64,000 bases of DNA from Arbacia lixula (taxonomy: Eukaryota; Echinodermata; Echinoidea; Arbacioida; Arbaciidae), in assembly GCA_963669155.1 (NCBI GenBank), contig OZ022587.1:23627074-23691073 (forward strand), in the 5' to 3' direction. The translations under genes and the position numbers were made by a program. Each line of letters starts with the position of its first letter. The stretch's first letter is position 1. Shown piece by piece: positions 1 to 64,000 of the stretch. The notes under the pieces were generated by a model, which saw only the letters and a program-made list of their open reading frames with translations, made no database searches and was not told the DNA's origin.

Positions 1-1140
1 TAACGACATCATAATGACGTCTTTGAATGACGTACCAAACAAATCATGTATTGTACGACCAGAATCTGACTTAAATACGACGTCATACTGACGTCTACAA
101 ATGACCCAAAAATCTCACTTTTTGCACAACCACATTTTGCTTATTTTAATGAACAAAGATGAACAAAGAAATCTCTTATTGGACGACCAGAATCCGACTC
201 AAATGCAACGTCATAATTACGTCTTTAAATGAACCAAAATCTTGCTTCTTTGCACGACTTTATTGTGACTACGTTACGACATCAAAATGACGTCTTTAAA
301 TGATCAAACACATCTCTTATCGTAAGACCAGAATCTGACTATACGTCAAAATTACGTCTTTAAATGACCCCAAATCTTACTCTTTTTTGCCCGACCATAT
401 TATGACTGTGTTACGACGTCAAAACTCCGTCTTTAAATGATCAAACAACTCTCTTTTGTATGACCAGAATCTGACTTTCATGCGACATCATAATGACGTC
501 TAACAGTGACCAGAAACATTTCACTTTTTGCATAACCATATCATGACTAAATTGCGACGTTATAAATAACCAAATCTTATTACACTGTATACGGAACAGA
601 ATCTCACTCGTATACGATATCATGATGACGTCTATGACCAAAAACATCCCACTTTTAATATGCACGACCATATATTATCACTAAATTATGATGTAAAAAT
701 GATGTTTATAAATGATCAAACAAATCTCTTAAAAATCTGACTTTCATACGACATCATAATGAAGTCGAACAGTAACCAGAGACAACCCTCTTTTTCCATG
801 AATATTATGACTAAGTTATTACGTCATAATGACTTATATAAATGAAAAAAAAAATCCAATTTGTTGAACGACCATATCATGACTATTGTGCGACGATATA
901 ATGACGTCTTTGAATGATAAAAAAAATCAGGTATTGTACGAGCAGAATATAAATACGACATATAAAAATGACAGTAAAATCTCACTTATTAGCCCAACCA
1001 TATTATGATTATGAAGATGTGATGACGTTTTATAAGAATTATCCCAAAATCTTACATTAATATTTCACCACTATATATGTTACGAAAATGACCTTAATCT
1101 GTCATCTGTCATAAAAATTTACGCCTTTCATTCCCAAAAT
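1..1140. repeat. Degenerate ~135-bp satellite rich in GACGTC
   Basis: About eight diverged units follow one another. The landmark CGACCAGAATCTGAC recurs near 55, 184, 327, 462 and 594, giving a period of roughly 130-143 bp. Each unit seems to be a dimer of two related halves of about 67 bp, each with an ACGACGTCATAATGACGTC-like core and then an AAATGACC/AAATGATC stretch. Drift increases to the right and the pattern fades by about 1,140. GACGTC is also the motif of the arms of the neighbouring element A, so this may be a decayed arm of a relative. No coding potential is seen. Confidence 0.75.
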
Positions 1141-1528
1141 ATGTCCGTGTTATAAGACCATTAAATGATCAATGAAAAAATGGTGGCAAAATAATGCCTA
1201 TTTAAAAACAGTATGTCCATGTTGCATGTCATTTTTTTTTTTTTTTTTTTTTGGGGGGGGGGGGGGAGGTACAAACCATGGTAAATGCAAGTAGATACCA
1301 CATCAGGAATTTCCCTCAAATAATAGAACTTAAAGCAAAATTATGGCAATCGCTAGATTTGAGGTTTTATGCTGGTTGTCTCAGACCTATAGCCTAGAGA
1401 CCGTTGAAGCTATATGCATGAGGACCATGTTTTACTGATATTTCACATAGGTCATCGATATTACACATGTGATTCGATCCTGCCGAGTTTTATGACTTTT
1501 ACAAATGGGACATCGACGTTTCCTTAAA
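1141..1528. other. Spacer with a poly-T/poly-G tract
   Basis: No gene is recognised. A run of about 21 T (1,232-1,252) leads directly into about 14 G (1,253-1,266), a T-to-G homopolymer switch. The rest is AT-rich unique-looking sequence between the satellite and the left end of element A. Confidence 0.6.
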
Positions 1529-2589
1529 CCTGATAGCGGAATGACGTCTTTAAGACGGTCTAAATTGGTCATAAATTTGTCAAACGTCGTACAGACGACT
1601 ACATTACGACGTCTTTATTTAATTCATTTCGCATAAGAAAAAAACACATGTTTACATGCAGTCAACCTTTTAAAAACGTAACATACAAAATACAAACATG
1701 AGGAGAAAAAAAAATGAAAGCACAAATAAACATACGTAGGGATACAAGTAGAGATGTAACGTCTTTATAAACAAATTAATAAAATATGATGTAACATTAT
1801 TTTATAACCCCCTCTTTAATTTGACCCTTCGGACATACCATCATCCATCCTAATTTAGTCGCTGCTCAATATTACTACATGTAGTCGCCGGTGTCAAGCT
1901 AGGAGCGCGCATAGGATTGTCTCACGTCTCAGATACCTGGTCCTTATGTTCTTGCGACGTCATCATGGCTTGAAAGACTTCAGAGCTTGCTGATATATCA
2001 AAATCCCCAGGAAAAGACAGAATGAAAGAAGTCCGAAGTGAAACAGTAGTAAGGGTGAGTTCATTGGCATAATTTGTCAGTCCCATGTGTGTAATTTGGT
2101 GTTGGGATTGTGAAATACATGTACTGTCTGTGTTACTGTCACAACTGTTGCTAATGCAGGCCTATATTTCATTAGTTGTTTGTTGACTTAAATGCGAAAT
2201 AGATGTTGGAGAGAATAGAATTGATTAAATTAATCAAGCAAAGATGCATTATAGTTCAATTAGTATTCTGCAATACCCGCAACTGTAAACTGTGCGTACT
2301 AGTACTAGTAGGGCCTACCTTGTCAATAACAACATCTTACTGCAACCAGCCCGCTGACGCAGTGAGCGAGCTGCATAGTCATTCATATGTGATAAATGTA
2401 TTGCACATGAGTAATTTATTCATATGCACAGGTCGATTAAACAGTAATCTGAATGATGGCGAGCCCTCAGGGTGCTCTCGCTTTGCAGGAGTAGTCCCGG
2501 GGGTTACAAAAGTAAATTTGCTCTAACTAGGATCATGAATGCTTTTGCTGTATTTTGGTAATTGTAATTTGTTGTGTTTTATTCAAATT

Positions 2590-3783
2590 CCAGTTAACGG
2601 CCAGCCGTCGGATGCTGTCATCCATCACACAGCTATTGCAACATGTGCAAAGCAGCAATTCTTGACAAGTGGGACATTGTGACATCTTCCTGAGTTCTTT
2701 AAGGATTCCAACCAAGAGCGTCAAGATGCGTTCATAGCAGCACCATTCTAAGCATCATTCTAAGGCAGCCTACATGTAGCCATACGTTGCCAAGGATCTG
2801 ACAAGCCCAAAAGAGAATGTAGCTACATTCCCACATTCTATGTAAGAATGCATTTTTCTTTTTAAAATCTTCCACTAATGCATAATTTATACTTTTCTTA
2901 GGGAATTTATACTTAATAGGACACGGGTAATACTGAGATTGTGCGCGCTTATTGAAAAGCCATTGAAACCTGTGTGGTAGCTGAGATGAAAGAACAAACG
3001 TTAGGTTTTGCAAATTTTGCGCCATAAAATTGGTTTTAAATCACATATTAACCTCACTGAACCCTACCTTTCCCATACCATGACCCTAATCTAGTCCAGA
3101 TCCTAACCTTTATCGATTTCTGTGGAATTTAAGCTGCTAATTCATGAACAAAACCATAAAAATTGAGACATACTTGTGGACAAGTATAAGGTGGTCTGCA
3201 TTGGCAAATTCACACACAGACATTGGCTGGAAAATGCACGGTGAAGTATAGACCTGCAATCGTGACACCATCTATTCATAAGTAATGAGAGACATCGCTC
3301 AAGAAAGCTCATAGGGCATGTGGCGAGCAGGATCTGTGTTTTGTAAAAGAAAATCAATTGTTGCATTTTAATTGCCAGCTAGGTTACCCTTTTCATGCAT
3401 GACTTAATATTTTGAAATTATGTACTCATTGCTTAAACATTTCAGTCTTCTTCTTACAGTGATTTTCTTTTCTTTTTAATGGGTGATGTCTTTCTCATGT
3501 TTTCTTTTTTTCTTTATAATTGCTGTTTTCATTGCAGTAGAGTTATTTTCTTTCTTATTTCCACCCCACCCCCTCCCTTTTCTGATGCAGATACCGTACA
3601 CTGAGTGGGGGAGGAGTTGAAGTGTGTTCAGCCACATTTCATAGCATCTTTGCACTGGAGAGAAAAGGAACTAACATCATTAAGTCTGTTAGGTCAAACA
3701 GCAGCAAAGACTGGAAAAGAGAAGTGGTCATTAGAACCGAAGATGTGAAGGAGAAGATAAAAGCTCACAAAAAAACAATGTGA
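2590..3783 (+). pseudogene. Decayed gene fragment with an intron-like gap
   Basis: I do not recognise the family. The 3' part is an open frame of 63 codons (3,592-3,783). It begins directly after an acceptor-like TTCTGATGCAG and ends in TGA; it reads YRTLSGGGVEVCSATFHSIF and continues into a basic, lysine-rich tail. Upstream, in mixed frames, are coding-like scraps at about 2,690-2,850 (one reads DSNQERQDAFIAAPF before a stop, another KPKRECSYIPTFY), interrupted by stop codons. A donor-like GTAAGA follows the second scrap at about 2,849. The VC-x4-F-x2-I-F layout recalls helical zinc-associated domains in some transposase-related animal proteins, but this is only a resemblance. Frame changes and stops mark it as broken. 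It lies inside element A and could be captured host sequence or a remnant of the element's own gene. Confidence 0.35.
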
Positions 3784-4439
3784 AACAATGTAGCAAATCA
3801 CATTATGGATGGGACCATGGTGGTCCCAAGTGTAGAACAGGGTAAACACACATCTGCTCCAGAAAGTGATTGTGAACCACACATGAATTTACTGCACCAA
3901 CCATTAAATCACTATCAGTCTACATGTTCCACTGTTGTGCACCATGCGTCCAGCACAGCTATCTGACAAAACGTGACATTCTGCTCTATTAAGCTGCCTT
4001 TACAACAGTTTATGGTACCCCTAATTAATATTATAACATGGATCTGCACCCATTGATTTGTCAATGTTGTAATCTTTATTGCTTGTCAATCTGTACTCTA
4101 CATCTACATTCAACTGAAGTAAATGATATCGATGAACATAACATTTCACGTCTTCGAATTGCTGTATTCAGTATACCCATGTACAGGTTGAATAGTGTTA
4201 CTAAATGTTGCTAAATTATAAAGATTGATAAGATATGAAAATTTATGTAAAATACATGCTATGCAGAATTCTTCTAAATTGCATTTTTATGACCCATAGA
4301 GATTACTCTTCTACCTGAGAAATACATTTGATCAATAAACAGAGACATATATATATATATATCTATATGTGTGTGTGTGTGTAATTCAAAAACACTAATT
4401 TTCTCCAACTAAACAGAAATGGATTTAGCGCCTATTTAA

Positions 4440-4660
4440 GCATACATTTCAGTAAATGTTTTGAAGGTGAGACATAAAAAAGGAAATGCCACCAAATTGA
4501 GTGCAGACAACAATAATTACAATAAAATATTAATCTTTAGTTGTACTAACCAATATTTTGTGATCCATATTACCGGACTACTATATAAAGTGAGTGTGCT
4601 GATGGTCTGGATAGGTATAGGATAGGAATAGGATAGGATATGATTGGGGTATAGGTTAGG
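4440..4660. repeat. Inner domain of element A, shared with element B
   Basis: This stretch aligns with about 19,540-19,800 of element B. Both contain an ACAATAAT-like region, then TAACCAATATYTTRTGA, then a TATATA-containing stretch, and finally GGATAGGTATAGGATAG with further GGATAG repeats. In both elements it sits just inside a terminal tandem array, but the arrays differ completely (GACGTC here, CCAGTAGAAA there). It is therefore the only part that ties A and B into one family. Function unknown. Confidence 0.6.
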
Positions 4661-4744
4661 ATATGTGTATTACATGTATGTGCATGTGTGTATGTATGAT
4701 TAGTCCTGCGAGATTATATCACTCCATTTTAATTTTTTTCATAC

Positions 4745-5385
4745 AGGTCATAAACATCACGTCAATGACGTCTTTAAGACGTGACTAAGACGTCATTTTA
4801 TAATGTCGTAAAAACGTCATTATGTGACGTCATAATGACGTCAAAATGTGACGTCTTATTTGACGTCGTGTGCTGTTGCAAAGTCGCGTCTTTACGACGT
4901 CATTTTGTGACGTTGTTAAGACGTCATTTTATGACATCGTTAAGACATCATTTTACGATGTTGTAAAGACGACATTATGTGACGTCACAATGACGTCAAA
5001 ATATGACGTCTTATTTGACGTCGTGTACTGTTGCAAAGTCGCGTCTTTAAGACGTCATTTTGTGACGTCGTTAAGACGTCATTTTACGATGTCGTAAAGA
5101 CGACATTATGTGACGTCATAATGACGTGAGACACGACGTAAAGAAGATGTAATTAAGACGTGATATTTACCAGTTTTCGGTCATTTAAACAGCATTTTAG
5201 TGTTAAAAAGACGTCTTAAAGACGTCGTATTTTAACCGAAACGACGTCAAAATGACGTCAAAATATGACGTCTTTTTTGACGTCTTGAGCTGTTGCAAAG
5301 TCGCGTCTTTAAGACGTCATGTATATGACGTCATAAAGACGTAAGACACGACTTCCAAAAGACGTGAAATTGACGTGATTTTTAC
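4745..5385. repeat. GACGTC tandem array (right arm of element A)
   Basis: GACGTC occurs very densely, often as TGACGTCA or AAGACGTCATTTT. A longer period is marked by GTTGCAAAGTCGCGTCTTT near 4,876, 5,031 and 5,294 (gaps of about 155 and 263 bp). Because the core is palindromic, the array can pair with itself on either strand. The small open frames here are products of the repeat. Confidence 0.75.
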
Positions 5386-5402
5386 CAGTCTCTGCTATCA
5401 GG

Positions 5403-5933
5403 GACTCTACACAGATGCAATACCCGAATCTACATCACATGTGTGCCTCTAGTAGGCCACCAAGGGAATAACCTTGGGGAGAAAAAACTTCAATCAAACT
5501 GTCACGTAAGGCGACATACTCGTACGATTCACATTGGGGTGATGTTTCCGATCAAACATACGAAACAGTTATCATATCGACAATAATAATATGCAATATA
5601 TGACGGTTATGCGTACGATTGAGCAATGAAACTTCAATCATGAATCCACAAACATCGCCTTTAAGCCTAAAGCATGTTAAAAGAGTATCTGAATAACTTT
5701 TTCTAATCAGGTAGCAGAATCTCGGTAAGACCTCCAAATTGTCACGTGAGTGACTTTTTTTTTTCTTCTGCTACTCTGACACTGAAATTATAGAAATTCA
5801 GACTGTTCGTATACAGTTATGCTCGAGTTTAATATTTCAAATCAACAAATCAACAATATATTGAGCATAAAAGATAACAAGAAACAAATCACAAATACAT
5901 AACTTTGGTTATCTTGGATGACCTGAACTGGTG
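5403..5933. other. Spacer with two related short segments
   Basis: No gene is recognised. AACTGTCACGTAAGGCGAC (near 5,497) and AATTGTCACGTGAGTGAC (near 5,737) are related, as are the two ACTTCAATCA stretches near 5,488 and 5,629. This suggests an old local duplication in inverted or rearranged form. Confidence 0.4.
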
Positions 5934-6303
5934 ATCCCCTCAGCCTGGCTCGGTCGCCATCAATGTCGGATACACTCGTCGTCGACCTCGGCACAGTCGC
6001 TCGGCGTGTCTCTCGGAAGCATCCCTTGGCTTGGCCACTCAGCTAGACGCTACCCTATCGGCGGTCCTCTCAGCTCCTCGGCCTTCACTAGTCGCTGCCA
6101 CCATGCAGACTCATGCCTTTACCTGCGATGCCCGAGCTCAAACGACGGCGAGCAGGCAAATGGAGATTGAGCTCCGTTCCAAAGTTCGGATCATAACTGT
6201 CCGAGTTCAGTTTTATCGGCAGCTGGAGCTCGCATCTCACCGACGTGGAAAACCCCCAGAAGAACGACTGCTGCCTAAGCGGAGATCTATGCTGGATGTC
6301 TGA
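5934..6303 (+). CDS. Hypothetical open frame, GC-rich, possible exon
   Basis: An open frame of about 122 codons runs from just after a TGA at 5,931 to a TGA at 6,301-6,303 with no stop inside. It is clearly more GC-rich than its surroundings. The predicted peptide is Ser/Ala/Arg-rich and ends with a charged segment (RQMEIELRSKVRIITVRVQF, then RRGKPPEERLLPKRR). A CTCAG acceptor-like site sits near 5,941 and the first internal ATG is at about 6,103. ATTAAA follows immediately after the stop, a possible poly(A) signal. No domain is recognised. It could be a terminal exon, part of a retrotransposon gag, or chance; base composition and length are the only support. Confidence 0.25.
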
Positions 6304-7686
6304 TTAAAGTGATTCTCCCCGAACGTCTCCATTACTCAGCTTTTTATTTAGATTCCCTAACCATAGATATTCACACTTAAGTCCATTACACTCCCATACA
6401 CTTGCCTTTCCATGCCTTTTCTACAGTAAAGGAATCATCCAATCATCATGCTTAAATATAGCCATTCCTAGCCACCACCTGGATGGGAGCTGTTACATAA
6501 TACCTCTATTCACTCAATTTCTATAGTCTGAATTAATACATAATATTACAAACCGGGCATGCTGTTGCCATGCTATTTCTTTAACTTTTGCTTTGTCTCA
6601 TTTCATGTGACTGTCCTGTCTGAATTTTACTGATCTAGACATGCTGTTGCTATGCCAGGTTATTCTTTTACTTTCACTTTGTCTCATTTAATGTGAATTT
6701 CCAGACGGTCACTTTCTTGCAGTATGACCTAGTGTCTTTCTAGGACAGCTTTAAAACTCTAGATCTTTAACCAATTCAAACAAGTTCTTCACTTCACTGG
6801 CAAAAATCAAAGATAAATTTCTCTCCTGACAATGTCGAATACAATTATTTAAGCATATTTGGAAATTGAATTCTATTGAATTTTCCCAGGGAGGCCGTAT
6901 TTCAAAATGGCTGCCATCCAAAGTTTTAATTGAATATATGTTTTAAATATATGAGGTATCATATTGAAGCTGATCAAATTAACCATAGGATGGTACAGAA
7001 CTCAAGAGGCGCTTGGGTATTTTTTAAGGAAATATTTTGGCAAAAATATACACAATTTCTAAGGTTTTACATTTTTCTTTGATTACGTATTTGCTCGTAT
7101 TAAGAAAATCTTTCACACTATGGGACTAAAACGTTTTTGAAAATCTGCCTGTTTTTCATTGTTTGTAAATATTATTTATATTTAATGTCATTACATATAG
7201 TTATAGCTCTCCAAAGTGGAAAGTGCTATGTTTAACACGCAACCATCATGCCCATGTTTATCGGATGTAAAACTTCCCCATATTCTGGCAAAATGTTCTT
7301 TAAAATCCGGAATTATTGTCATCGAAGACTACTGCATACACACATTCTTAATGACAATTGTACTCCGTCCCCGCTTTCTCTGGTAAACAAATAGTTTACT
7401 TGAGCCCCCCCTACTATTCAAAATACATATAGAAAATATTCCTATACAAATAATTATTTTTAGGTCAATGGGCGAAAGACCTATTTGACCAGATAGAGGT
7501 GTTTGAATGGGGGAGGTAGATGATGAAGCAAGAGAGGGGAGAAGAAAGAGTGTAAGGGGGGAGGGGGATGATGAAACAGGGAGACTGTTTCTCTTATCTA
7601 CAAATAAATTATCAATCAACAACAACAAAAATATTACTTCTGCTGTACTGCAAACATTGTATCAATTTGAGTGTTCTCTGGATGAT
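6304..7686. other. Non-coding stretch with a short duplication
   Basis: I see no gene. Two related segments (about 6,547-6,620 and 6,640-6,715) share CATGCTGTTGC(C/T)ATGC and then CACTTTGTCTCATTTNATGTGA-like sequence, a diverged tandem duplication of about 95 bp. The remainder is AT-rich. Confidence 0.45.
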
Positions 7687-8345
7687 CAACATACAGGTAT
7701 TATGCAATATTCTCATCCAGGCTGGCATTTGTTAATGAAGAGGATTATCCTAAGTGGATGTGTCAAATGGTACAGAAAGGTGCTACAGCCAATGAATACT
7801 TATCATAGTCATTTACAACATCCAAATAACACATATAAAGAAGATCGACAGAATATCGACAGTGTTTACTGCCCCTGCCAAGTAAAGTTGCATTAAAGCC
7901 AAGTCAGCCTAAAGTAGCTTTGAGTCAACTTCACTCGGCATATCGGTATGATGTTGACATAATATTTCCTAGTTAACCTGATCCCCCTCTACCTTTACCC
8001 CTATTAAATGGGGTGTAACTGCGAGACATCATCTGCAAAGTACCAGTGTTTGAAAGTAGGAAACTTCAGATATCAATCAATTTACTCAATGTCAATAAAG
8101 TTTGGTGAGAATAATCTATAAATTCAATCACATTAACTCTCTCTCTCCCTCTTTCTCTCTACCCCACTCTCTCTCTTTATATAAATATTTATATATTAAT
8201 TCATATGAAAGTGCGAGAGTTCTCAACTTTGACATGATAAGCGGCTTGTAAGTAATAATAGTCGTAGTAGTATTAGTAGTAGTAGAAAAAGTAGTAGTAG
8301 TAATAGTAGTAGTAGTTGTAGAAGTAGTAGTGTAGTAGTAGTAGT
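7687..8345 (+). repeat. Duplicated block, copy 1 (with TAG repeats)
   Basis: This segment returns at 8,757-9,900. It runs from CAATATTCTCATCCAGGCTG through GTGTTTACTGCCCCTGCC to a (TAG/GTA)n microsatellite at about 8,255-8,345. The open frame reaching into it (7,507-7,896) is not kept in copy 2, where the frame is shifted and interrupted, so it is unlikely to be a gene. Confidence 0.8.
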
Positions 8346-8756
8346 AATTAAAAGTAGCAGCAGTTTGAACAATGCAAGATTTGCTAAAATGTGGTATCAG
8401 TATTACGTAGTCGTAGACCTAGCTCTATAGAAATGGATAAAAAGATGCGAGACTCTTGCCAATTGAGGAAACTTTGTTAACATAATCATGAATCATTTTA
8501 GTCATGAACCAAAAAAGAAGTGATTTTGTTGATGTTACTGTTCAGCGTCACGAACATGTAGTTACACGTAGTTGTAGAATTGTAAGAAATCCTGTGCGCT
8601 TGGTGTTGTAAATACTGAAGAAGTTATGTACTCTATTTACTTTATGTATTTGTATGTATTCATGTTATTGTATATCATAGTAAATATGTTGAACTCTCAT
8701 ACCCCGAGAGGGGGTCGATAGAGTTAATAAAATCGTATATATCTTCTTATCTTATC
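8346..8756. other. Spacer with a possible retroelement 3' tail
   Basis: No gene is seen. Near the end, CCCCGAGAGGGGGTCGATAG is followed by an AATAAAA-type signal and by TCTTCTTATCTTATC, a short (TCTTA)n tail. A poly(A)-signal-like motif with a short simple-repeat tail is typical of some non-LTR elements, so the block at 8,757 may abut an old retroelement end. Weak inference. Confidence 0.3.
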
Positions 8757-9842
8757 AACAGGCAGGTCTTATGCAATATTCTCATCCAGGCTGGCATTTG
8801 TTAATGAAGAGGATTATCTTAAAGTGGGTGTGTCAAATGGTACAGAAAGGTGCTACAGCCAATGAATACTTATCATAGTCATTTACACCATCGAAATAGC
8901 ACATATGAAGAAGAAGGGATATTAATCGACTCAAAGAAAAAAAGTCAATATATTTTTGTTACTTTTGTTAATGTGACAATGTAAACCAAGGCCAGAACAA
9001 CATAAGATTATAGTGCATATCAATTCAAAGCTATGTAGCGCACACTAAATAGCTGATTAGAGGACATAAGCATGTTACATAGGTATGAAATTTTATGTAC
9101 GTATGTATAGTGCATAGATTATCCTGTAAACCGAGGCATGCGCACTTTGCGCAATTTTATTCCTGATAACATGTATTATACCTTTTTGTATTATCTTAAC
9201 GCATATATGAGAGGCAAACAAACGACCAAATACATGATGCGTCATTGTCAATAATTATGACAATTGAGTAACGTGATTTTGACAATGGCGGGTATGATCA
9301 AGCAGACAAGGTTTTTACAATCGTCTGAATAATCAGGTGTACAAGGTTTACTTCTTGCAGAATATCAACAGTGTTTACTGCCCCTGCCAAGTAAAGTTGC
9401 ATTAAAGTCAAGTCAGCCTAAAGTAGCTTTGAGTCAACTTCACTCGGCATATCGGTATGATGTTGACATAATATTTCCTAGTTAACCTGATCCCCTCTAC
9501 CTTTACCCCTATTAAATGGGGTGTAACTGCGAGACATCATCTGCAAAGTACCAGTGTTTGAAAGTAGGAGACTTCAGATATCAATCAATTTACTTAATGC
9601 CAATAAAGCTTGGTGAGAATAATCTATAAATTCAATCACATTAACTCTCTCTCTCCCTCTTTCTTTCTACCCCCACTCTCTCTCTATATATAAATATTTA
9701 TATATTAATTCATATGAAAGTGCGAGAGTTCTCAACTTTGACATGATAAGCGGCTTGTAAGTAATAATAGTCGTAGTAGTATTAGTAGTAGTAGAAAAAG
9801 TAGTAGTAGCAATAGTAGTAGTAGTAGTAGAAGTAGTAGTAA

Positions 9843-9892
<50 letters not shown>

Positions 9893-9900
9893 ATTAAAAG
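8757..9900 (+). repeat. Duplicated block, copy 2, with a 440-bp extra segment
   Basis: 8,757-8,912 matches 7,687-7,840, and 9,356-9,900 matches 7,850-8,345. Between them, about 8,913-9,355 is absent from copy 1. Either copy 2 gained an insertion of about 440 bp or copy 1 lost it. No clear target duplication or terminal repeat is visible at the extra segment. Substitutions are scattered, so the duplication is not very recent. Confidence 0.75.
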
Positions 9901-10097
9901 TAGCAGCAGTAGTATTAGTAGTAGTAGCAGTAGTAGTAGTATCAGTAATAATACTAGTATTAGTAGAAGTAGTAGTTGTAGTAATTAAAAGTAGCAGCAG
10001 GAGTATTAGTAGCAGTAGCAGTAGTAGTAGTAGTATCAGTAACAGTACTAGTATTAGTAGAAGTAGTAGTAGTAATAGTAGTGTAAGTAGTAGGAGT
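9757..10097. repeat. (TAG)n/(GTA)n microsatellite
   Basis: A long trinucleotide array with interruptions, including AATTAAAAGTAGCAGCAG twice (about 9,892 and 9,984), which shows internal duplication. The leucine/tyrosine-rich minus-strand frame here is a by-product of the triplet repeat. Confidence 0.9.
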
Positions 10098-10144
10098 GGA
10101 AGTATTAAAGGGCATGTACTGTACTGGGAAGGCAAAAAAGCCTT

Positions 10145-10431
10145 CAAAATGTAATTGTTAGCAATCTTCTTGCCAATGGTCTTTAATTCATGTATTGTCT
10201 ATTTTAGAAGCTTGTTGAAAGTTATTTGCCCTCAAATGATCCACATATGGAGTAATTAATGATTAATGATTATATCCCCAAAATGTTCGGCCCGAACATT
10301 TTGAGGATTTGTGATTTAATCACTCATTACTCCAAATGTTGATCATTTGAGGGCAAATAACTTTCAGTAAGCTTCTAAAATAGACAATACATGAATTTAA
10401 GACCATTGGCAAGAAGAGTGCTAACATTTTG
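10145..10431. mobile_element. Long perfect-loop hairpin (inverted repeat)
   Basis: Left arm 10,145-10,290 and right arm 10,292-10,431 are inverted copies (roughly 140 bp each, high identity by eye) around a single base. The centre is a perfect palindrome, AAAATGTTCGG-C-CCGAACATTTT. The arms share AAGCTTCTAAAATAGACAAT and CCATTGGCAAGAAGA in inverted form. It may be a palindromic MITE. A transcript would fold into an almost uninterrupted duplex. A further direct copy of the inner-arm sequence ACATTTTGAGGATTTGTG follows at about 10,425-10,456. Confidence 0.85.
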
Positions 10432-11012
10432 AGGATTTGTGATTTAATCACTCATTGAATTGTGGAGGTTTGTTCATGTATTTGTTTTGATGTCTAAATT
10501 ATGGCGGATCACAGATATAATCTTGCGTGGCCCTCGGTTTTTGAACGGGGATTGAATTTGTAAAAGTTTTACTGTGATACTTTGAATCAACCTTGCAATT
10601 AACGTCAAAAATATCCCATTTATAAATCTGTGGAATAGTCGGACCTATAATCGGTGTCACATGCATTTACCATTATATCTCCTAATCTAATCGACATATT
10701 ATAACACTCTTACTTTTCGACGTGATTTTTTTCGATAAAACGAAATATGCATAATCGACAATAACTCACGAAGTAAATGCGACAATGCTGCCCCGATAAT
10801 ATTCCTGCACCGACATTTTCTCCGCTGTCCCTTCTTTTTTTACAAACAAAATATTTGTATTACATGTAGCTCCTCGACGTTCTTGTTTCTTTCTTTTTAA
10901 TAGTTGTATCTTTATTTGTTCGTTCTTTTGCAATGTTCGTCACGACAGAATTAAGAAATGTAATAGTTATACTTATGTTCATTATAATGATGATACTAAA
11001 GATAGTGAAAGA
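10432..11012. other. Non-coding, nothing recognised
   Basis: AT-rich sequence without a supported gene, RNA or repeat, apart from the partial direct copy of the hairpin inner arm at its start. Confidence 0.5.
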
Positions 11013-11400
11013 GCAGTGGCGTAACAGGCAGGGTGCAGGGGGCGGACTGCTCCCCCGCCCCCGCGGAGCTCACCGGGAAAATGAAATCATAAATAATGTG
11101 AAAGAGGAAATGAAAAGGGGAGGAAGACGGAAAAGGGAAGAAAAGGAAGAAAAGGAGAGAGGGAAATGGAAAGGAAAAGGTCAGAAAGAACATTAGGATA
11201 AGATGAAGGATAAAACGGAAGGAACGATAAAAAGGAACATATGAGAGAAAAAATCTCTATATTAGAATGAGTGAGGAAGTGGGTACAATTTAGGAAATGA
11301 CAAAATGGAACTGGAATTTGTGATGGAAAGGGAAAGAAAAGGAGAAACGGGAAATGGAAGAACAATATAATGGAAGGTAAAAACATATAAACGCTTTTCA
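11013..11400. repeat. Repeat edge (CAGTGGCGTAAC) plus purine tract
   Basis: CAGTGGCGTAAC at 11,013 opens a GC-rich hairpin-like stretch (GGGGGCGGACTGCTCCCCC). CAGTGGCG-type starts are common at ends of hAT-like and other interspersed repeats, but no matching right end was found. From 11,085 to about 11,395 the plus strand is mostly A and G (GGAAAAGG, GAAGGAAC), a polypurine tract that may adopt triplex structure. Confidence 0.35.
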
Positions 11401-11870
11401 TCAAAACAAAATTGCGGCCATCTTTTTGAATGGCTCGGTTGGGGGCATGGCCTTCAAAAGTTATACGACCGAGAACAAAAAAAAAGAAAAGGAGAAAAAA
11501 ACGACCGAAAAAAAATAATAATAAGTAAAGCTTATGTAGCGCATTATAACCATGACGGTTCTCTACGTGCTTCACATTAATATTAACAGAATATACAAAG
11601 GCATTTACCTTACATTACATGGCTTTTCATTTGACCCCCCCCCCTTCCTCTACCAACCACCACTGTAACGCCCCGGAGATGACGTGGAGAATGATGGTAA
11701 TGTGATAATACTCTGTCCTTAGTTTTGCTTTTACTGCGACGTTTATTCTTTGTTGATGAAGGCCTATTTGACCGAAAGCTCTTGCATAGATAAAGACTAA
11801 AAAAAATAGCCCGATGTGGGCGAAATAGCGAGCTTGTTCTGAAGAAATTTGAGCTCGCGAGCTAGCCGGA
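11401..11870. other. Non-coding, retroelement-tail-like segment
   Basis: 11,505-11,580 reads AATAATAATAAGTAAAGC followed by TTATGTAGCGCATTATAACC and TTCTCTACGTGCTTCACATT. This recalls a 3' tail common in marine invertebrate retroelements, but I cannot assign a family. A short poly-C run lies at about 11,635. The proline/serine-poor minus frame at 11,627-11,908 has no recognisable domain. Confidence 0.3.
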
Positions 11871-12118
11871 GCGTCTTCATTGGCCTGAAAATTTCCCGAC
11901 CTCGGCATGTATCAGCGCGCACGAGGCATTGTTTACGCAGGGAGTTGGGAGCACACAACTCCCTGGTTTACGTTAGTTTTTTATACGTGCGTGAATGCGA
12001 GCTCACAACTGAAACCACGCGGTCGTGGCCTGTTCCCGTCGCACACTGCGCATGTGCGAACATCGGGATAATTATGCATCCCGAGTTTCGAGCTTACGTT
12101 TCGAGCTAATGAAGACGC
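11871..12118. mobile_element. Short inverted-repeat element (MITE-like)
   Basis: GCGTCTTCATTGGCC at the left edge is mirrored by TAATGAAGACGC at the right. The centre has a stem of eight pairs, GGGAGTTG (11,940) against CAACTCCC (11,956). TGAAGACGCGATTTGCATC recurs at about 15,915 beside element C, so this end sequence is dispersed. Terminal identity is short and target duplication is unclear. Confidence 0.35.
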
Positions 12119-12137
12119 AATTGCAACTTCAGATTGC

Positions 12138-12210
12138 AAACAGGATCTTGAATTAAGATACCCACGTTAATGATAATCAAGTGTTCTCTTTGTTGTTAGT
12201 AAGAACCTCC
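12138..12210. repeat. Direct repeat also at 15,143-15,214
   Basis: CAGGATCTTGAATTAAGATA onward, through TTAATGATAATCAAGTGTT to AGTAAGAACCTCC, is repeated almost exactly at 15,143-15,214. A weaker partial copy lies at about 14,660-14,690. The two good copies bracket the 12,327-14,603 element, so the element and its surroundings may sit inside an older duplicated sequence. Confidence 0.75.
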
Positions 12211-12326
12211 TAGTCCGGGAGCCCAGAAGATTTATTCATGTGAAAAGGGCCGGAACAACTGACCCCATAGGTCGAAAGGATATAGCCTGGACATCACAAA
12301 AATGTTTTTCTGGCAAGGTGTACCCG

Positions 12327-14603
12327 ATGCTTTTCCCCCCAAATCACCACAAATGTGACGTCACTACCGGAAAGCCCTTTTTTCCAAAATGGTTGGAACA
12401 TATACATGGTACCATCTAGCAATAATTTGGAATGTAGGCACGGTCCCGTAATGTGGCCCCGTAATCCTTACGACGAGCAGGATTAACAGGGCACCCACAT
12501 GTGGTCAATGGTGTAAACGAAGCATGTCAAAATGATACATGTACCTGCAAAATTTCAACACCAAAACAGACATGGCCGCTGCACGCCTTAGTCGTCGATG
12601 CCGCCGGAAAACACATGAGCTATTGCGCCCATACCATGCAGGCAACTGAGTTAAAAATTGGGGTTACTATCATTACGGGCCGTTATCATTGTGGAACCAT
12701 TCTTCCGTCACCACTGGGTCTGATCATATACTTTGGTACTTTTGGAGGGAAGGTCATGGTCATGCTCCGCTACATTATTGATCCGGAGATGACCATAGGA
12801 GTGACAATATGTATCATCCATTATGTTTTGAAAAGCGGAACAAAAACGAAAGACATCAAAACAAATTAAAATGAAATGTGTGGTAAGGTTCTTGGATTAC
12901 AATGAATACCAATGAATACCAATGAATTTTAAAAAGTTTCAATCAAAGAATAACACGTATCCAAAATATACGCGTTTATTGTTTATAGAACTACACAGTA
13001 TTTTGTCGGATTTTACGCTCGTATTTCCAAAAAGTGACATTTTGTTATTGGTCAGTGGATGACTATAAGCGTGATAATATGTAACATCATTATATGTTTT
13101 GAAAAGTGGAAGGAATGCCGAAATCACCAGAACATTGTATGTATTGTACAACAACAGAGCTACATAATAAAGTCTGAGGAACTTACATGAACGGCTCTCA
13201 GGACTATTCTGTTTCATTGAGTAATTCAACTACATGTATACTGCTGGACTATATTCACCACCCATGATCCCAACACAACAACATGTCGAAAAGTAATATG
13301 TTGTATGGTTCTTGATGTACAAGGATGTAAAAAGTTTAAACCGAAAAGTAACACGCACACAGGATATACACATATCCAGTCAATACGCAATATTTTGTCC
13401 GATTTCACTCAATTCTTCCAAAATACTCCGTGACATTATTGATCCGGAGATGACCATTGGTGTGACAATATGTAACATCCATATATGTTTTGAAAAGCGG
13501 AACAAAAGCCAAAAACATCAGGACAAATTGAAAGGAAATGTGTGATACGGTTCTTGGATTACAATGATTTTAAAAAGTTTCAACCGAAGAGTAACACGGA
13601 TCCAAAATTTTACGCATTTATAGAACAAACGCGTATTCTGTCGGATTTTACGCACGTTCTTCCAAAATGTGACATCATGTCATTGGTCAGTAGATGACTA
13701 TAAGCGTGATAATATGTAACATCAATATATGTTTTGAAAGGTGGAAGGAATGCCGAAATCACTAGAACGTGTCGGAAAGTAATATGTTGTGTGGTTCTTG
13801 AAGTACAAGGATCTAAACAGTTTCAACCGAAATGTAACAGGTATACGGAATATACACGTATTGAGCTAATACGCAACATTTTGTCCGATTTCACGCAATT
13901 CTTCCAAAATGCTCCGTTACACTTTTGGTCAGGAGATGACCATAGGTGTGACAATATGTAACATCCATATATGTTTTGAAAAGCGGAAGAAATGCCAAGA
14001 ACATTAGGCTGACTTGAAAGGAAATGTGGGGTATGGTTCTTGGATTACAAGGATTTGAAACGCTTCAACCAAAAAGTAGCACGTATCCAGTATATACGCG
14101 TATATAGGACATACGCAGTATTTTGTCCGAGACTTTACGTGCATTCTACCAAAACGTTACGCTCTATTATTGGTCAGGAGATGACCATTAGCGTAAGCAA
14201 ATGTCCCATTCTTATATGTTTTGAAAAGCTTGAGAGATGCCAAACACAGCAAACTAAGTTTGAAATAAATATTTGGAATGGTTTGTGAACTACAAGAATT
14301 GAAAAAGTTTTAACCGAAAAAGAGCACAAAAACGAACAAAAGTGTTGCATTTTGCTGACGTCGTCGCGATATATCGTCGTCGTCGACGTCACCCACATAG
14401 GTGTCATTGCCAAAACAAGTCAATGGTGATGTTGCACATTTACCAGGCAACCAAACTATACCAATCCAGTTTGACAATTGGGCATAAAAAAATGTGTGTT
14501 AACACCTTTGCTTTGATGGTACCATGTATATATTCTAACCATTTAAAAAAAAATGCTTTCCGGTAGTGACGTCACATTTGTGGTGATTTGGGAGGAAAAG
14601 CAT
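12327..14603. mobile_element. Inverted-repeat transposon enclosing a 243-bp satellite
   Basis: Terminal inverted repeats of about 87 bp lie at 12,330-12,416 and 14,515-14,600. Both carry ATGCTTTTCC at the outer end, a TGACGTCA palindrome, CTACCGGAAAGC and GGTACCATC. Outside them the sequences diverge. No transposase frame is seen, so the element is non-autonomous. Its interior (about 12,760-14,300) is a tandem array of ~243-bp units. Superfamily not assignable: no convincing target duplication was found. Confidence 0.75.
12760..14300. repeat. ~243-bp satellite inside the transposon
   Basis: GGTTCTTGGATTACAA-like starts fall near 12,889, 13,306, 13,551, 13,792, 14,034 and 14,281, giving periods of about 241-246 bp. 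The first gap is longer (417 bp) because about 175 bp of other sequence (13,133-13,300) interrupts it. Each unit includes AAAAAGTTTCAACCGAAAAG, ATTTTGTCCGATTT, GGTCAGGAGATGACCATA and CATATATGTTTTGAAAAGCGG. The several short frames here are read out of this repeat. Confidence 0.85.
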
Positions 14604-14880
14604 GCGTGCATATAAAGCGGCGGAAGACTTTGAACAGAATTGTTAACTTGCCGAATAAACAGAATCTTGGATTAAAATACCCTTCTGAAATAAAAACCCG
14701 GAAACGTTCGTTGATTACAAGAATCTGCAATAATTTATGTCCAAATTTTAAAAAGATAATCGAGCTCTACCGGCAGCCTACCGGACATTCAGAATGGTTA
14801 GGAACGATAGCAACAGGGGTCGCGTATGTTCAAAACAAGGAAATCGCTCCCCGAAGGTGGGGGGACATGTTTTTCATCAA
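14604..14880. other. Spacer, no gene recognised
   Basis: Includes a partial copy of the 12,138/15,143 direct repeat at about 14,650-14,690 and otherwise unremarkable sequence. Confidence 0.5.
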
Positions 14881-15060
14881 GAAGTCGCTGAGCGGGGGTG
14901 GGGGGGGGGGGGTGGGGGGGGGTGGGGTGATGATGATGATATTTTAGGGGTAGAGGACCTAAAATAGTGTGTGGGGGGGGAATTTGATATTGTGTCCCCC
15001 CCCCTTCGAAATGGTGGGGGGGGGGGGGGGGGACGCGTCCCCCCCGGGATTTCCGCCCAT
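14880..15060. repeat. G-run/C-run low-complexity repeat
   Basis: Alternating long G and C runs: G-runs around 14,895-14,930, 14,972-14,981 and 15,015-15,032; C-runs around 14,996-15,004 and 15,039-15,047. GGACGCGTCC is a palindrome next to them. GGGATTTCCGCCCATGG at the right end looks like an interspersed-repeat terminus. G-quadruplex or i-motif formation is plausible. Proline/glycine-rich frames here are artefacts. Confidence 0.6.
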
Positions 15061-15142
15061 GGTTGAAAAGCCCGCTTGTTGTGGCAGGACACTGTAAATA
15101 GTGAATAAACCTCATAACAATTTAAAAGAACAACTTGCCGAA

Positions 15143-15214
15143 AACAGGATCTTGAATTAAAATACCCACGTTAATGATAATCAAGTGTTTTCTTTGTTGT
15201 TAGTAAGAACCTCC
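15143..15214. repeat. Direct repeat, second copy
   Basis: Nearly identical to 12,138-12,210, with G-to-A and C-to-T differences only. See that entry for context. Confidence 0.75.
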
Positions 15215-15610
15215 CCATCTTCGTTTCTATTGTTTTACTCTCCGATCGATAGTGCAGAGCAGGCGCAGTGCATTTCAAATCTCGCGGCCACTTACTTCGT
15301 CCATGGACCCTACCACGAATATCCATGCTTCGTCTAAGTTATGTACGATAAATATTCATTTTGATTAATAATAGAAAAAATATACCGCTACAAATGCACA
15401 CAAAAATGTATTTACTATCCTAACATATTTTATTTCATCGAGAAATATTCTTTATTGTGTCTTTTAAAATATTTTGCCTCAATATTTTCTATAGCACTGA
15501 TCTCAGTGTTCCATAGGCATAACGATGAGTTTCGAGTTACAGCCTGCTATGTAGCTGCATGTACGAAGCCCCAAACCGGACATTTTTGACAACGAAAAAA
15601 AAAAAAAATA

Positions 15611-15782
15611 GTACGTACGTACGTAGTATTATTACGTACGTACGTAGTATTATCACGTACGTACGTAGTATTATCACGTACGTACGTAGTATTATCACGT
15701 ACGTACGTAGTATTTATTACGTACGTACGTAATATTTATTACGTACGTACGTAGTATTATTACGTACGTACGTAGTATTACC
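15611..15782. repeat. 21-bp ACGTACGTACGT array, left arm of element C
   Basis: About eight units of ACGTACGTACGTAGTATTATC. ACGTACGTACGT is self-complementary, so every unit can form a cruciform arm. The array in the right arm (20,813-21,032) is its reverse complement. Confidence 0.9.
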
Positions 15783-16692
15783 AGGTACCGCGCGCCGCGG
15801 CCATGCGCCAGGCCAGCGCAGCCGGCCGGTATCCTGCGCCCACTTTGTGCCTGACATAGTAACTTACGCCAGTCCCTCCGAAGATGGATAATTTCCAATA
15901 TACTTGAACGAGTTATGAAGACGCGATTTGCATCTTATTTGTATAGATTAGATGGAATTTTACGAGTATTATTTGTGCAAAAAAAAAAATGCACAAGCGC
16001 CGCATGAAGAGTGGTATTGTCATAGGTCTATATTGATTAAAAATCAATTTAGCATAAACTTATGACCGCGAGGGGACTAATGCGATGAAAGATGAAAGGG
16101 GGTAAACAACCTCGTAATCCTATTCATTAATGGCTGCGTTCTTCTTGTGATTACTTTTTTTTCCCAGAAGCACGTAGAATTAAACAAAGTTGTATGGCTT
16201 TAGCACACGTACGGAGGCTTACATTACTCCCATTCTTTACACATCAATCAAAATGATTGTGAACGTCACGTTTGCTTCGTGACTTGTCCCACGCGCCCGT
16301 CTTATAAAAAGCTGCGGTTGATTTAAATCCATCGCAATTCCAATGCCATATCTCTAATAGACTGATTTATTACGATCTTTACTTATGTACATGTATAACT
16401 TGAATACAACCGAGAGAACCCACTTCGGCGCGATTTACTTAGATGGCGCCCTTCACAATTTATGCTACAGACATACTACAGTTAACGAACTGAAGACTAT
16501 ACATTACGATGCAAAAATTACAAGTTGAGCAAGTCTGCGTGAGGTTGGGGCCGCCGCGAGGGGGTTTAGGTTGCTTGCGTGTGACGAAATCACATTGCTC
16601 ATTCCCCCAAAACACACACACCAACAACAACATAAACAACAACAAAACAAGAAAAAAAACAAGAAAGAAAGACACTAAAAAGAAAAAAAAAA
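15783..16692. other. Interior of element C, no gene recognised
   Basis: Starts with a GC-rich segment (GGTACCGCGCGCCGCGG). TTATGAAGACGCGATTTGCA near 15,911 resembles the end of the 11,871-12,118 element. No coding frame has support. Confidence 0.4.
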
Positions 16693-16696
16693 GCTA

Positions 16697-16731
<35 letters not shown>

Positions 16732-16925
16732 AGAAGAAGAAGAAGAAGAAGAAGAAGAAGAAGAAGAAGAAGAAGAAAAAGAAGAAGAAGAAGAAGAAAA
16801 AGAAGAAGAAGAAGAAGAAGAAGAAGAAGAAGAAGAAGACAAAGACGACGACGAAGAAGAAGAAGAAGAAGAAGAAGAAGAAGAAGAAGAAGAAGAAGAA
16901 AAAGACGACGACGAAGAAGAAGAAT
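16693..16925. repeat. (GAA)n polypurine tract
   Basis: About 230 bp of GAA/AAG triplets with a few GAC interruptions (AAAGACGACGACGAAG twice, near 16,840 and 16,902). Long GAA/TTC runs are known to adopt triplex (H-DNA) structure. The lysine/glutamate frame is an artefact. Confidence 0.9.
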
Positions 16926-18400
16926 GATGGTGAGACTAATCTTTTCAGTCTAAAGGTGGAGTTGTGATTGTGTTGTTTTGCAATATAAGGCTAAAGAAGG
17001 ACTATTATAAATCAACATCTATCTTGATGACTTTCTTTCTTGAACATCCTGTACATGATGTTAGGCCTAATCATGATTTCGAGAAGAAAAACAAATCTCC
17101 ACTCTATACACCATGCTGTTTACATGAAGTCTTCTCTGGCGTGTTTAATCCCCTTAAAATTTAGTTCCTTTAAATGTATTTTTAAAAAATGGTTATAATA
17201 TCGATTTTGAAGACAGGGTAGCCTATTCGAAGAAGTCATGAAACTCGATCGGCATGAATCAAAAGTATATACTGTATACCTTAACCATAATATCACCGTC
17301 GTATAGCTTCATGAACCATTATTGAAAAGTGAAAAACTCTCCATGTTTTTTAAACGCCCCGACCATAGCAGACAAACTCTACATTATCTTATGTGATATA
17401 GTCCTTTTATCACTTCCCCACCCAAATAATGTTCCCACGTTAATGACCACTTTCCAGAAGCCGAATTGCCCTCATTAAAGATTGTCCGTCCCTTTTGCAA
17501 GCTTAAAATTTGAAATCGTCTATCACGATCGTAAATTGAAGAAAGTGTGATTCAAGACCATTTCTAAGAATATAGCATATTGAAGCTTTCTGTATATGTA
17601 AACAAATTCAGCCGTTAAATTTCAAACCGACTTTTTTCGTACTACGAAAAAAGTATTAGTCTTTGTTACAGTATCTATGTGGTTATTATGCATGTGTGAA
17701 ATCCTAATTTTATGAATAATTACCAAACTTTGGAGATGATTCCTTCTATAGAATATTTTTCTTTTCATAATGCGTTTTATAATTAAATTAACAGATTAAT
17801 CAATAAAGCAGATATGTCAACACAAACTGCTAAGAGCCTGAGGTAAAGACTATTAATCAGACGTTGTTTACGTGCATTATTTGAATTTTACCCTACGTAT
17901 CAGTTTCAAATTGTAAATATAGAGCTTGCTAACACTTCTCTATATGTTTTGCCAATGTTTCGATGGTTTTGTGGTGATCTGAAAAAGGGACTGGCTGTCT
18001 TTAAGGTTATAGCTGACTTTCGACTAGGGATAGTCTGAATAACATTTACTGTAATTTAGGATGACGTAGGTATAGGTCCATTTTCTGTGAAATCATCATG
18101 CATCCAAGAAACTGACCTTCTGTATGAATTTCACTATAATCATTTACTTCAAAGTTGAGACAGAAGGAGTATTTAGAGAGCTCATCAGAGAGTTCGATGC
18201 AGTACGTTATTTCAGGAGTTATTTCCCGAGTTATTTCAGGATCGAGATTCCTTCATCCGGGAGTCATCAGAGTTGTTCGAGTATTATACTACAACGTACA
18301 TACCTCGAGTCCACGAGTCCTATATAGCCCCTTCAAGTTCAACTCAGAATTAAGCAATCTATAGAATTTATTATGTAGTCGATCCCACACACAACAACCC
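16926..18400. other. Non-coding interior of element C
   Basis: No gene recognised. It contains a perfect 12-bp-stem palindrome at 17,630-17,654 and a short TTATTTCAGGAG/GTTATTTCCCGA duplication near 18,208-18,240. Frames at 16,964-17,164 and 18,124-18,364 have no domain or codon support. Confidence 0.45.
17630..17654. repeat. Perfect palindrome
   Basis: ACTTTTTTCGTA, one C, then TACGAAAAAAGT. The stem is 12 perfect pairs with a one-base centre. It could be a head-to-head junction of short inverted termini; no element around it was identified. Confidence 0.85.
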
Positions 18401-18421
18401 CCCAGGTCGAAATTCCCATAG

Positions 18422-19475
18422 AAACCAGTAGAAACCAGTAGAGACCGTCTACTGGTTTCTACTGGTCCAGTAGAGTCTACTGGTCTGAAGAGGAACTACG
18501 AAATCAAACCAGTAGAAACCAGTAGAAACCAGTAGAGTCTAATGTGTTGAAGACCAGTAGAAACCAATAGAAACCCGTGAGATCTAATGGTTTGAGAAGA
18601 AGTGTGAAAAAAACAAAGTCAAACCAGTAGAAACCATTAGAGACCAGTGGATTCTAATGGTATTGAAGACCAGTAGAAACCATTAGAATCCACTGGTCTC
18701 TAATGGTTTCTACTGGTTTGACTTTGTTTTTTTCACACTCCTTCTCAACCATTAGATCTCACTGGTTTCTATTGGTTTCTACTGGTCTTCAATACCATTA
18801 GAATCCACTGGTCTCTAATGGTTTCTACTGGTTTGACTTTGTTTTTTTTACACTCCTTTTCAAACCATTAAATCTCACTGGTTTCTATTGGTTTCTACTG
18901 GTCTTCAATACCATTTGAATCCACTGGTCTCTAATGGTTTCTACTGGTTTGACTTTGTTTTTTTCACACTAATAGAAACTAGTGAGATATAATGTTTTGA
19001 AAAGGAGTGTGAAAAATTCAAAGTCTAACCAGGAGAAACCATTAGAGACCAGTGAATTCTACTGGTGGAGACCAGTATAAACCAATAGAAACCAGTAAGA
19101 CCTAATGGTTTGAAAAGGAGTGTCAAAAATTAAAAGTCAAACCAGTAGAAACCAATAGAAACCAGTGAGATCTAATGGTTTGAAAAGGAGTGTGAAAAAT
19201 ACAAAGTCAAACCAGTAGAAACCACTAGAGACCAGTGAATTCTCGTGGTATTGGAGATCAGTAGAAACAAATAGAAACTAGTGAGATATAATCTTTGGAA
19301 AAGGAGTATGAAAAATACAAAGTCAAACCAGTATAAACCAATAGAAACCAGTGAGATCTAATGGTTTGAAAAGGAGTGTGAAAAATACTAAGTCAAACCA
19401 GTAGAAACCATTAGAGACCAGTGAATTCTACTGGTAATGGAGACCAGTAGAAACCAATAGAAACCAATAGAAATA
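18422..19475. repeat. Left array of element B with internal inversions
   Basis: Decamers AAACCAGTAG and variants (ACCATTAGAG, ACCAATAGAA, ACCAGTGAGA) are organised into a higher unit of about 120 bp that includes GGAGTGTGAAAAA and CAAAGTCAAACC. Orientation flips at about 18,670 and back at about 18,970: 18,422-18,665 and 18,970-19,475 read one way, 18,670-18,968 the other. The array is therefore itself a nested palindrome. Confidence 0.85.
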
Positions 19476-19539
19476 GAGATGCTCATGAATATTCATGCAT
19501 GTATTTACGTGTCCTAATTTTGTACTTTTAAATAGATAA

Positions 19540-19800
19540 CCTCCACCTAACCAGATAAAAGGAATTTTACCAAGTAATGATTTCAAGTTTAAACATAAAA
19601 TAGTGAATGTCACCTACTTAAGTGAAGACAATAATGATAACAACAACAAAAATGATCTTCTTAAATGTAAGTTAGAGTAACCAATATCTTATGAACCTTA
19701 TAATCGTACTGCTATATATATGAAAGTCTGTGAAGAAAAGAGTAGGAATTAGGATAGGTATAGGATAGAATAGGAATAATCATAGGATAAGATAGGATTA
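19540..19800. repeat. Inner domain of element B, shared with element A
   Basis: Matches 4,440-4,660: ACAATAATGATAACAACAAC-like start, TAACCAATATCTTATGAACC, a TATATATATGAAAG stretch and GGATAGGTATAGGATAGAAT. This is the only similarity between the two elements apart from overall design. Confidence 0.6.
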
Positions 19801-19889
19801 GGTTAAAACAATAAGGAAATATGCCATAATTTAGATTATCATATGCTAGATTTAAATCAATATTTCATCAATATTTTTAATTTTGATTC

Positions 19890-20490
19890 CTATTGGCCTC
19901 CTGATGGCTCCAGTAGGTATTCTACTAGTTTCTACTGGTATTCTGATGGATCCAGGAGAAATTGCTTCTGGTTTCTACTGGCACTCTACTGGTATTTTTC
20001 TAATGGTTTCTACTGGAAATCATTTCACTTTCCATATTCAAACCAGCAGAAAAATTCCAGTAGAAACCAGTAGGAAGCTCTATTGGATCCAGTAGAGATT
20101 CCTACTGGTTTCTACTGGTCTTCTACTGGTCTTCTATTGGATCCAGTAGAGATTTCTACTGGTTTCTACTGGTATTCTACTGGCATTTTTCTAATGGTTT
20201 CTACTGGAAATCATTTCACTTTCCATATTCAAACCAGTAGAAAATTCCAGTAGAAACCAGTAGGAAGCTCTATTGGATCCAGTAGAGATTCCTACTGGTT
20301 TCTACTGGTCTTCTATTGGATCCAGTAGAGATTCCTACTGGTTTCCACTGGTATTCTACTGGTTTCTACTGGCATTTTTCTAATGGTTTCTACTGGAAAT
20401 CATTTCACTTTCCATATTCAAACCAGTAGAAAATTTCCAGTAGAAACCAGTAGATATTCTAATGGTTTTTCTCTACTGGTTTCTACTGGT
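19890..20490. repeat. Right array of element B, ~190-bp higher-order units
   Basis: AATGGTTTCTACTGGAAATC starts recur near 20,002, 20,192 and 20,381, so units are 189-190 bp and there are three. Each contains a palindromic GGATCCAGTAGAG and several TTTCTACTGG decamers. The higher-order structure differs from that of the left array. Confidence 0.85.
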
Positions 20491-20619
20491 TTTTCGTCCT
20501 GGGCCAACAATTGACAATCGTATGGTCCCTGCATGGACAATTTTGGACGACCCGTCGAGCAAAATTAACCCCTAGCTCGAAATCTAACGATCACTAGAAG
20601 TTTTTTTTACTGGTGAAAA

Positions 20620-23910: not shown

Positions 23911-24856
23911 GGTCATGTTTGACATGTTTTTTCTTTGCAATTAAACCTCATATAGTACAGTGAATGGGTAGGATGTCATCAATGGCTATATTTTTATCAC
24001 CTTAGAGACATTCATGAAATGTTATATTTTTTTCTGAAAATTAAGCGACTTTCAAAGTGTGATGTTTTTATTTGTGAATTTTTGAACATTTTTGGTCATT
24101 TTCGAACTTTTTTGCCTCTCTTTGACAACATTTTTCTTTCAATTTATAATATCCTACACCTCAGGATTCAGGAATTGAGGTCTGAATTTATCTTTCTACG
24201 GATTTCTTAATTGCCAGCTCGACATTATTTTTTAAAGTAAAAATATCTGCAATTTTGTAAAGTTATGACAGAATTCTATTTAAAATGTTTTGGACTCTCG
24301 CACGGACTGATTGACCTTAGGTACCCGAGACCGTTAAGTTGCAACAACTGGAACTACTTCCATATGATTTGTGAATAACTTGTTATTAAGCCAAAGCTTT
24401 ATCCGGCTGTGTGACGAAATCATCTTTTTTCTTGGTAATTGGAAATAATTGGCGAATACAAAGAAGGCTAGTTCAACTGAAGGCTTTCAAGATAAGGGAG
24501 ACCATGTTTTATACAAAGGAAAGCTGTTTATGACGCTGAAATTAAGGTGTTCTTTTCATCAATCCTTTGGAATACTTCCTGCCCGCCAGACCTGGCGTGG
24601 CGAACGGTGAGTACATGTCTAAGTGGTACACCCACCCCATCATGTTTGCATGTTGCTCATTAGACATTTAGAATGACCCACATTATTTTTTGATCTTTTC
24701 TATTATTCACATTGACATGTCGTGTATAGGTAAAATAGAAATGTACAATGTAGGAACCAAAATTTCAGATGAAGGGAGAGTCTACAAAATGAAACAAATA
24801 AGCTCAAAAGTGGTTAATTTCAGCACTTATTCACTGTGCATTTGGTATGAGACAAT

Positions 24857-30106: not shown

Positions 30107-30108
30107 TA

Positions 30109-63999: not shown

Positions 64000-64000
64000 A

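Follow-up and report, generated by a model that had tools for sequence, protein, structure and literature searches.

Array-armed transposons of the sea urchin Arbacia lixula that share an inner domain between unrelated arms

A stretch of 64,000 nucleotides of the Arbacia lixula genome (C12:23627074-23691073, contig OZ022587.1; hereafter the window, to whose forward strand all coordinates refer unless a contig is named) contains two elements, A and B, in which arms built of tandem arrays and closed by short inverted tips surround an inner domain. An initial annotation of the window had proposed that the inner domains are related but that the arms have no sequence in common. The searches described below, made in an assembly of 607 Mb and 590 contigs, led to a third family, C, in which the core of B lies between arms of another kind, and the ends of these elements probably change by nesting and trimming, through which an old core comes to be carried in new arms. 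Statements on copies in the genome as a whole rest on fetched or scored samples of the candidates.

The inner domain common to A and B

When window positions 4440-4700 and 19540-19830 were aligned by the Smith-Waterman method, a score of 162 was obtained, against a mean of 31.4 (s.d. 4.6) and a maximum of 47 in 300 dinucleotide shuffles; after removal of a GGATAG run the score was still 123, compared with a shuffle maximum of 59. Judged by these alignments, the two domains are homologous far beyond chance, as had been proposed, and the homology is longer than the 220-260 bp first assigned to it: in a full-length A copy, it covers the entire middle of B, approximately 19483-19893 (about 410 bp). 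The domain opens with a palindrome and contains a GGATAG-type run; it is complete in B (19483..19893, forward strand), where the palindrome is CATGAATATTCATG. In the A copy of the window, its start is missing and its right edge is approximate (4440..4747, forward strand). Mean identity between the A and B domains is 67.2% (26 comparisons), and identity is 97.0% within B, 98.4% within small C copies and 95.0% between small C copies and B; these values come from a table of 21 domains, which leaves out L077, the two A copies L046 and L035, and L078. An RNA gene in the domain was considered and rejected, the three Rfam matches in 19400-19950 all being well under the gathering scores.

The arms gave a different result. 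In a blastn comparison of the whole B element of the window with two whole A copies, the domain alone was matched below an E value of 0.01. Furthermore, the left arm of B scored 24 against the 150 and the 400 bp of A upstream of the domain, a score attained in 74 and 207 of the 300 shuffles, respectively. As far as tested, the arms of A and B are unrelated, in agreement with the initial annotation.

A search of the assembly for both domains yielded 788 first-look candidates for that of A and 620 candidates for that of B. Forty were scored in each case, those of A at 85-100% identity and those of B, all full-length matches, at 96-100%. A pattern of the bases shared by A and B had 510 matches at three or fewer mismatches, whereas its reversed control had none; the first 100 matches were listed. 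Of three variants fetched from this list, L068 gave access to family C; L069 and L070 are B copies of the ordinary form. Thus, in the sample read, three different arm sets (A, B and C) stand beside copies of the domain.

The B core in the arms of family C

In copies of family C, GCAAGCTTGC arms enclose a B core, at whose edges stubs of both B arms are retained. In all four C copies fetched with the L068 core string, the stretch corresponding to B 19291-19940 is held between C arms with both junctions identical. These are the smallest C copies, and the retained stretch (19291..19940, forward strand) consists of the domain, about 185 bp of the left arm and 47 bp of the right arm, at 93.1-93.8% identity to B in the four copies. 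The right-hand B/C junction is common to all eight C copies read (L075-L078 included).

A longer copy, read from L084, L079 and L076, is a complete C element of 2,926 bp with CA/CA duplications. From left to right, it begins with the C tip, the C left arm, a C-specific middle and an intact B left tip; the B left arm, the domain, a cut B right arm, the C right arm and the C tip follow. The junction that places the B left tip inside C sequence has 49 matches in the genome (reversed control, 0), and it is carried by 39 of the 40 scored copies of the C middle, for which there are 58 candidates. In another copy (L080 with L075), the C middle is joined to the middle of the B left arm and the B tip is absent, and in the four smallest C copies the C middle is absent as well. 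On C1 to C6, the contigs with a complete zero-mismatch list of cores, each of the 12 scored C right arms goes with a B core, nine by their place and three by reading (the places of C arms and cores were compared by eye). Three places without an exact core string (C1:6102804, C2:7900645 and C5:14156674) were read as possible empty C sites, and the B tip was found at the same site in all three. The B core and the B tip lie in C elements that moved as units.

The elements, their ends and their classification

Element B occupies 18401..20503 (2,103 bp, forward strand), exactly the limits first assigned to it, and is flanked by a CC duplication at 18399-18400 and 20504-20505. Its left tip, CCCAGGTCGAAA (18401..18412), which is the one also found intact inside C composites, is followed by a left arm of CCAGTAGAAA-type arrays with an inverted block (18413..19474). 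The right arm (19894..20491) is made of TTTCTACTGG-type arrays, inverted with respect to the left arm, and ends in the right tip TTTCGTCCTGGG (20492..20503). Within the left arm, at 18679-18970, one block in opposite orientation pairs at 86-99% with the stretches next to it, forming a large hairpin inside one arm. Among ten fetched B copies, the fetched stretch contained both tips in five, the right tip only in four and neither in one.

Element A had been taken to start at 1529, but many copies keep aligning beyond that position. Its true left tip, CCCTGATAGCAGACTGACGTC, lies outside the window, at C12:23624922, 2,152 bp to the left; the right tip, TCTGCTATCAGGG (5391..5403), ends at 5403 and is followed by the AC duplication at 5404-5405. 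The whole copy therefore measures 7,555 bp, with AC/AC duplications, and its visible part is 1..5403 (forward strand). A tandem repeat scan and the motif density place part of the outer left arm at 1..1100 (forward strand), where higher-order arrays of 71, 141 and 555 bp with ACGTC motifs are degenerate after about 500. At 4433..4440, about 490 bp that are present in most fetched A copies are absent from the window copy, including the first 95 bp or so of the domain, the start of which was located in L033. The right arm (4754..5390) has 24-bp units in a 131/155-bp higher order, with GACGTC motifs; each of 30 A loci cut from the scored set contains 9 to 45 GACGTC. The right tip was seen in all 20 fetched A copies. 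Four other copies with both tips are 6,345 to 8,756 bp long, in part because the left arm varies in its count of 555-bp units (about 4.2 in the window copy versus about 5.2 in L031).

The sequence at 1529, although not the terminus of A, is indeed tip-like: 1529..1618 (forward strand) is a decayed internal A-type left tip with its tip-proximal sequence, and of the 88 positions aligned with the outer tip, 72 are identical. Its score against the outer tip region is 88, compared with a maximum of 38 in 1000 shuffles and of 54 for 329 other left-arm windows, whereas the 100 bp preceding the inner and the outer tip score only 15 with each other. The decayed inner tip is present in 13 of the 20 fetched A copies, with the flank CTTTAA in 12 (CCTTAA in the window). 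Tip and flank together have 38 matches in the genome (control, 0). For 28 of the 40 scored A domains they are found 2.9 to 4.2 kb ahead of the domain, and for 31 within 20 kb. An ancestor of most sampled A copies thus already had this second, inner A-type left end. It suggests, as the simplest reading, an A element nested in another A element; local duplication of the tip is the alternative. Nests between the A and B families do form, as an A copy (L041 with L056 and L057) sits within a B right arm at approximately B 20363; the fetched stretch did not show the left end of this A copy.

The inverted tips of the three families, CCCTGATAGCAGA (A), CCCAGGWCGAAA (B) and CCCTTAYAGAAA (C), are about 12-13 bp long and begin with 5'-CCC. 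Target duplications of 2 bp were present in all 16 copies in which both tips were read: AC, CT, TA, TA, GT and GG in six A copies; CC, AT, CT, AA, GA and TA in six B copies; and TT, CA, TA and CA in four C copies. With these tips, arrays and duplications, the three families belong to a single mechanistic kind of repeat-armed DNA transposon. They are apparently non-autonomous, the frame evidence coming from A only: no stop-to-stop frame exceeds 114 aa in five A copies, four window frames have no Pfam match, and no transposase was found in the A frames or the four window frames checked, no search aimed at an autonomous partner having been made.

In a descriptive sense all three families are foldback-like, having inverted tips, array arms and a middle domain. 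The Drosophila FB and sea-urchin TU families, which had been named as precedents, resemble them in their array-built inverted arms around a middle, and the precedent stands for their look, but FB makes target duplications of 9 bp and TU of 8 bp, which the 2 bp of the 16 copies do not fit. The tips of CMC elements are of the CACTA/CACTG type, unlike the CCC tips of A, B and C. The CMC group (CACTA, Mirage, Chapaev) has duplications of 2-4 bp (PMC4482050); the 2-bp duplications agree with this length, which is however not specific to CMC, and subterminal repeats are another point in common with CACTA/CMC elements (PMC8978399, PMC4482050). Tc1/mariner elements in general duplicate TA (PMC10045372), which makes up only 4 of the 16 duplications, and ISL2EU duplicates AT in A|AT|T (PMC4482050), which was seen in one of 16 (L060). 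Because the duplications are 2 bp long and of mixed sequence, FB/TU, Tc1/mariner and ISL2EU are all disfavoured. Galileo, a foldback-like element of the P superfamily in Drosophila, has 7-bp duplications and a P-type transposase (PMC3573991), and it was rejected on the length of the duplications. No description of A, B or C was found in the openly licensed literature, among the matches listed.

Positions 23500-64000 of the window, some 60-100 kb from the end of C12, look subtelomeric: direct duplications that are nearly identical make up a patchwork there, together with TAGGGT and TTAGGG arrays. The duplications include 26666-32364 versus 58306-64000 (99.5%) and 48644-54022 versus 52200-57574 (98.9%). 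At 41603-44735, 26-bp units (GCTACGTAATACATGTAATTCTACAT) form an array within which large segments are repeated almost identically, and arrays of approximately 206-bp units at 24854-25964, 48440-49753, 52200-53310 and 55751-56861 are repeated within the duplicated blocks.

Probable nesting and trimming, and the alternatives

The probable course of events would be as follows. One array-armed element would receive another in its interior, the resulting composite would then transpose on the outer tips, and deletions would strip the tips and outer arms of the inner element, leaving the old core in new arms. For B and C, this would have required a single insertion of B into a C element, followed by amplification of the composite and stepwise trimming. 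The stages seen are a copy with the intact B left tip, then one without the tip and with a shorter B left arm, and then copies with the domain and two stubs. The intact B left tip inside C sequence, and the occurrence of its junction at 49 places, argue for nested insertion and trimming, and the B arms most likely changed through nesting in C, trimming and amplification. That B entered C by insertion, and not through recombination, is inferred, as no empty site was found. The A and B domains would have parted by the same route, in an event too old to read. The motifs of the arrays may be putative transposase-binding sites, by analogy with Galileo (via PMC4079207). Of the earlier proposal that the arms are replaced or generated anew while the domain is inherited, replacement is thus borne out by the B core in C arms, and generation anew is not needed.

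Several observations weigh against nesting and trimming. The B right tip and the second duplication are absent from every C copy read, and the insertion is to that extent unproved by a target duplication; no empty C site was read, and the single C-middle match of 40 that lacks the junction (C4:27989096) is unread. The junction is found within 4 kb of 28 scored C right arms out of 40, but not of the other 12. L078 has the C right arm and a domain truncated on the left, with no left array in the fetched stretch. For A, the inner tip was not seen in the fetched stretch of 7 of the 20 copies, and the A right arm has windows that reach 75 against the outer tip, near the 88 of the inner tip, and the similarity is therefore partly due to shared motifs. 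Finally, no remnant of a B arm scoring above shuffles was found beside the A domain on the left, the side tested.

The alternative that survives best, although we regard it as rather unlikely, is that A and B inherited the same arms, whose arrays diverged past recognition by fast satellite turnover. The arrays of A do vary in copy number and unit order among copies, and the domain itself has diverged to 67%. However, the tips of A and B also differ after CCC, and the change from B to C arms occurs at sharp junctions around a domain that is about 95% identical; turnover may still apply to the A/B pair. It is also conceivable, if doubtful, that the domain of approximately 410 bp survives as a passenger while its vehicles are lost: it would have gone through at least three unrelated arm sets by repeated nesting and trimming, and would persist because it is useful to transposition or to the host, with the core inherited and the arms disposable.

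Less probable still is that copies swap their ends through ectopic recombination or gene conversion, a mechanism put forward for Galileo in Drosophila mojavensis, where some copies have the ends of two subfamilies and others the centre of another subfamily (PMC3573991). In C, the right arms of B and C are fused directly and the B right tip is absent, which could result from recombination between arms as well as from deletion. Against this reading, an intact B left tip lies within C-specific sequence, and one junction recurs at 49 places, as a single insertion would give; Galileo chimeras lack matching duplications (PMC3573991), whereas all four complete C copies have them; and because the arms of B and C seem by eye to have nothing in common, there is no obvious substrate for homologous exchange. 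We consider it very improbable that the inner domain is a mobile element in its own right, which A and B received in separate insertions: its edges are fairly clear and a palindrome marks its start, but no tips or duplication were seen by eye at these edges, the A, B and C domains read adjoin arrays on at least one side (only L078 lacking the left one), and C acquired the domain along with stubs of the B arms and not as a fresh insertion. An assembly or alignment artefact, which the location of the window in a duplicated chromosome end might suggest, can practically be dismissed, given identical junctions on many contigs and 2-bp duplications that differ by site.

Nesting and trimming has partial counterparts in known systems. 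Galileo, like A, B and C, has long, internally repetitive ends that grow and shrink, and centres and ends from different subfamilies; its exchanges are attributed to recombination or conversion between subfamilies that are related, whereas here the intact inner tip suggests nesting and the arm sets are unrelated (PMC3573991). Since exchange of centres has already been proposed for Galileo (PMC3573991), what is new in the present case is that the arm sets are unrelated and that the stages can be seen. Tetris and DAIBAM, foldback elements of Drosophila virilis, likewise have modular repeat-built ends, are non-coding and share one part only, but their common part is the outer end, whereas that of A and B is the core (PMC4079207). 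In MER6 with the V-SINE domain, a conserved domain of one element was also spread inside another with a DNA transposon as the vehicle; there a SINE entered a mariner-derived MITE, whereas here both partners are array-armed and intermediate stages survive (PMC6887750). The non-autonomous Helentron/DINE-1 elements and array-bearing elements of oysters carry tandem arrays too. They are rolling-circle elements, however, which are not known to make a target duplication.

Non-coding transposon families are often sorted by their ends, and here the ends and the middle have separate histories. Copies frozen at successive stages show a route by which a core can gain new ends and, presumably, a new transposase. 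This is a concrete route to foldback-like families with unrelated arrays, and a caution against classifying such elements by their tips alone.

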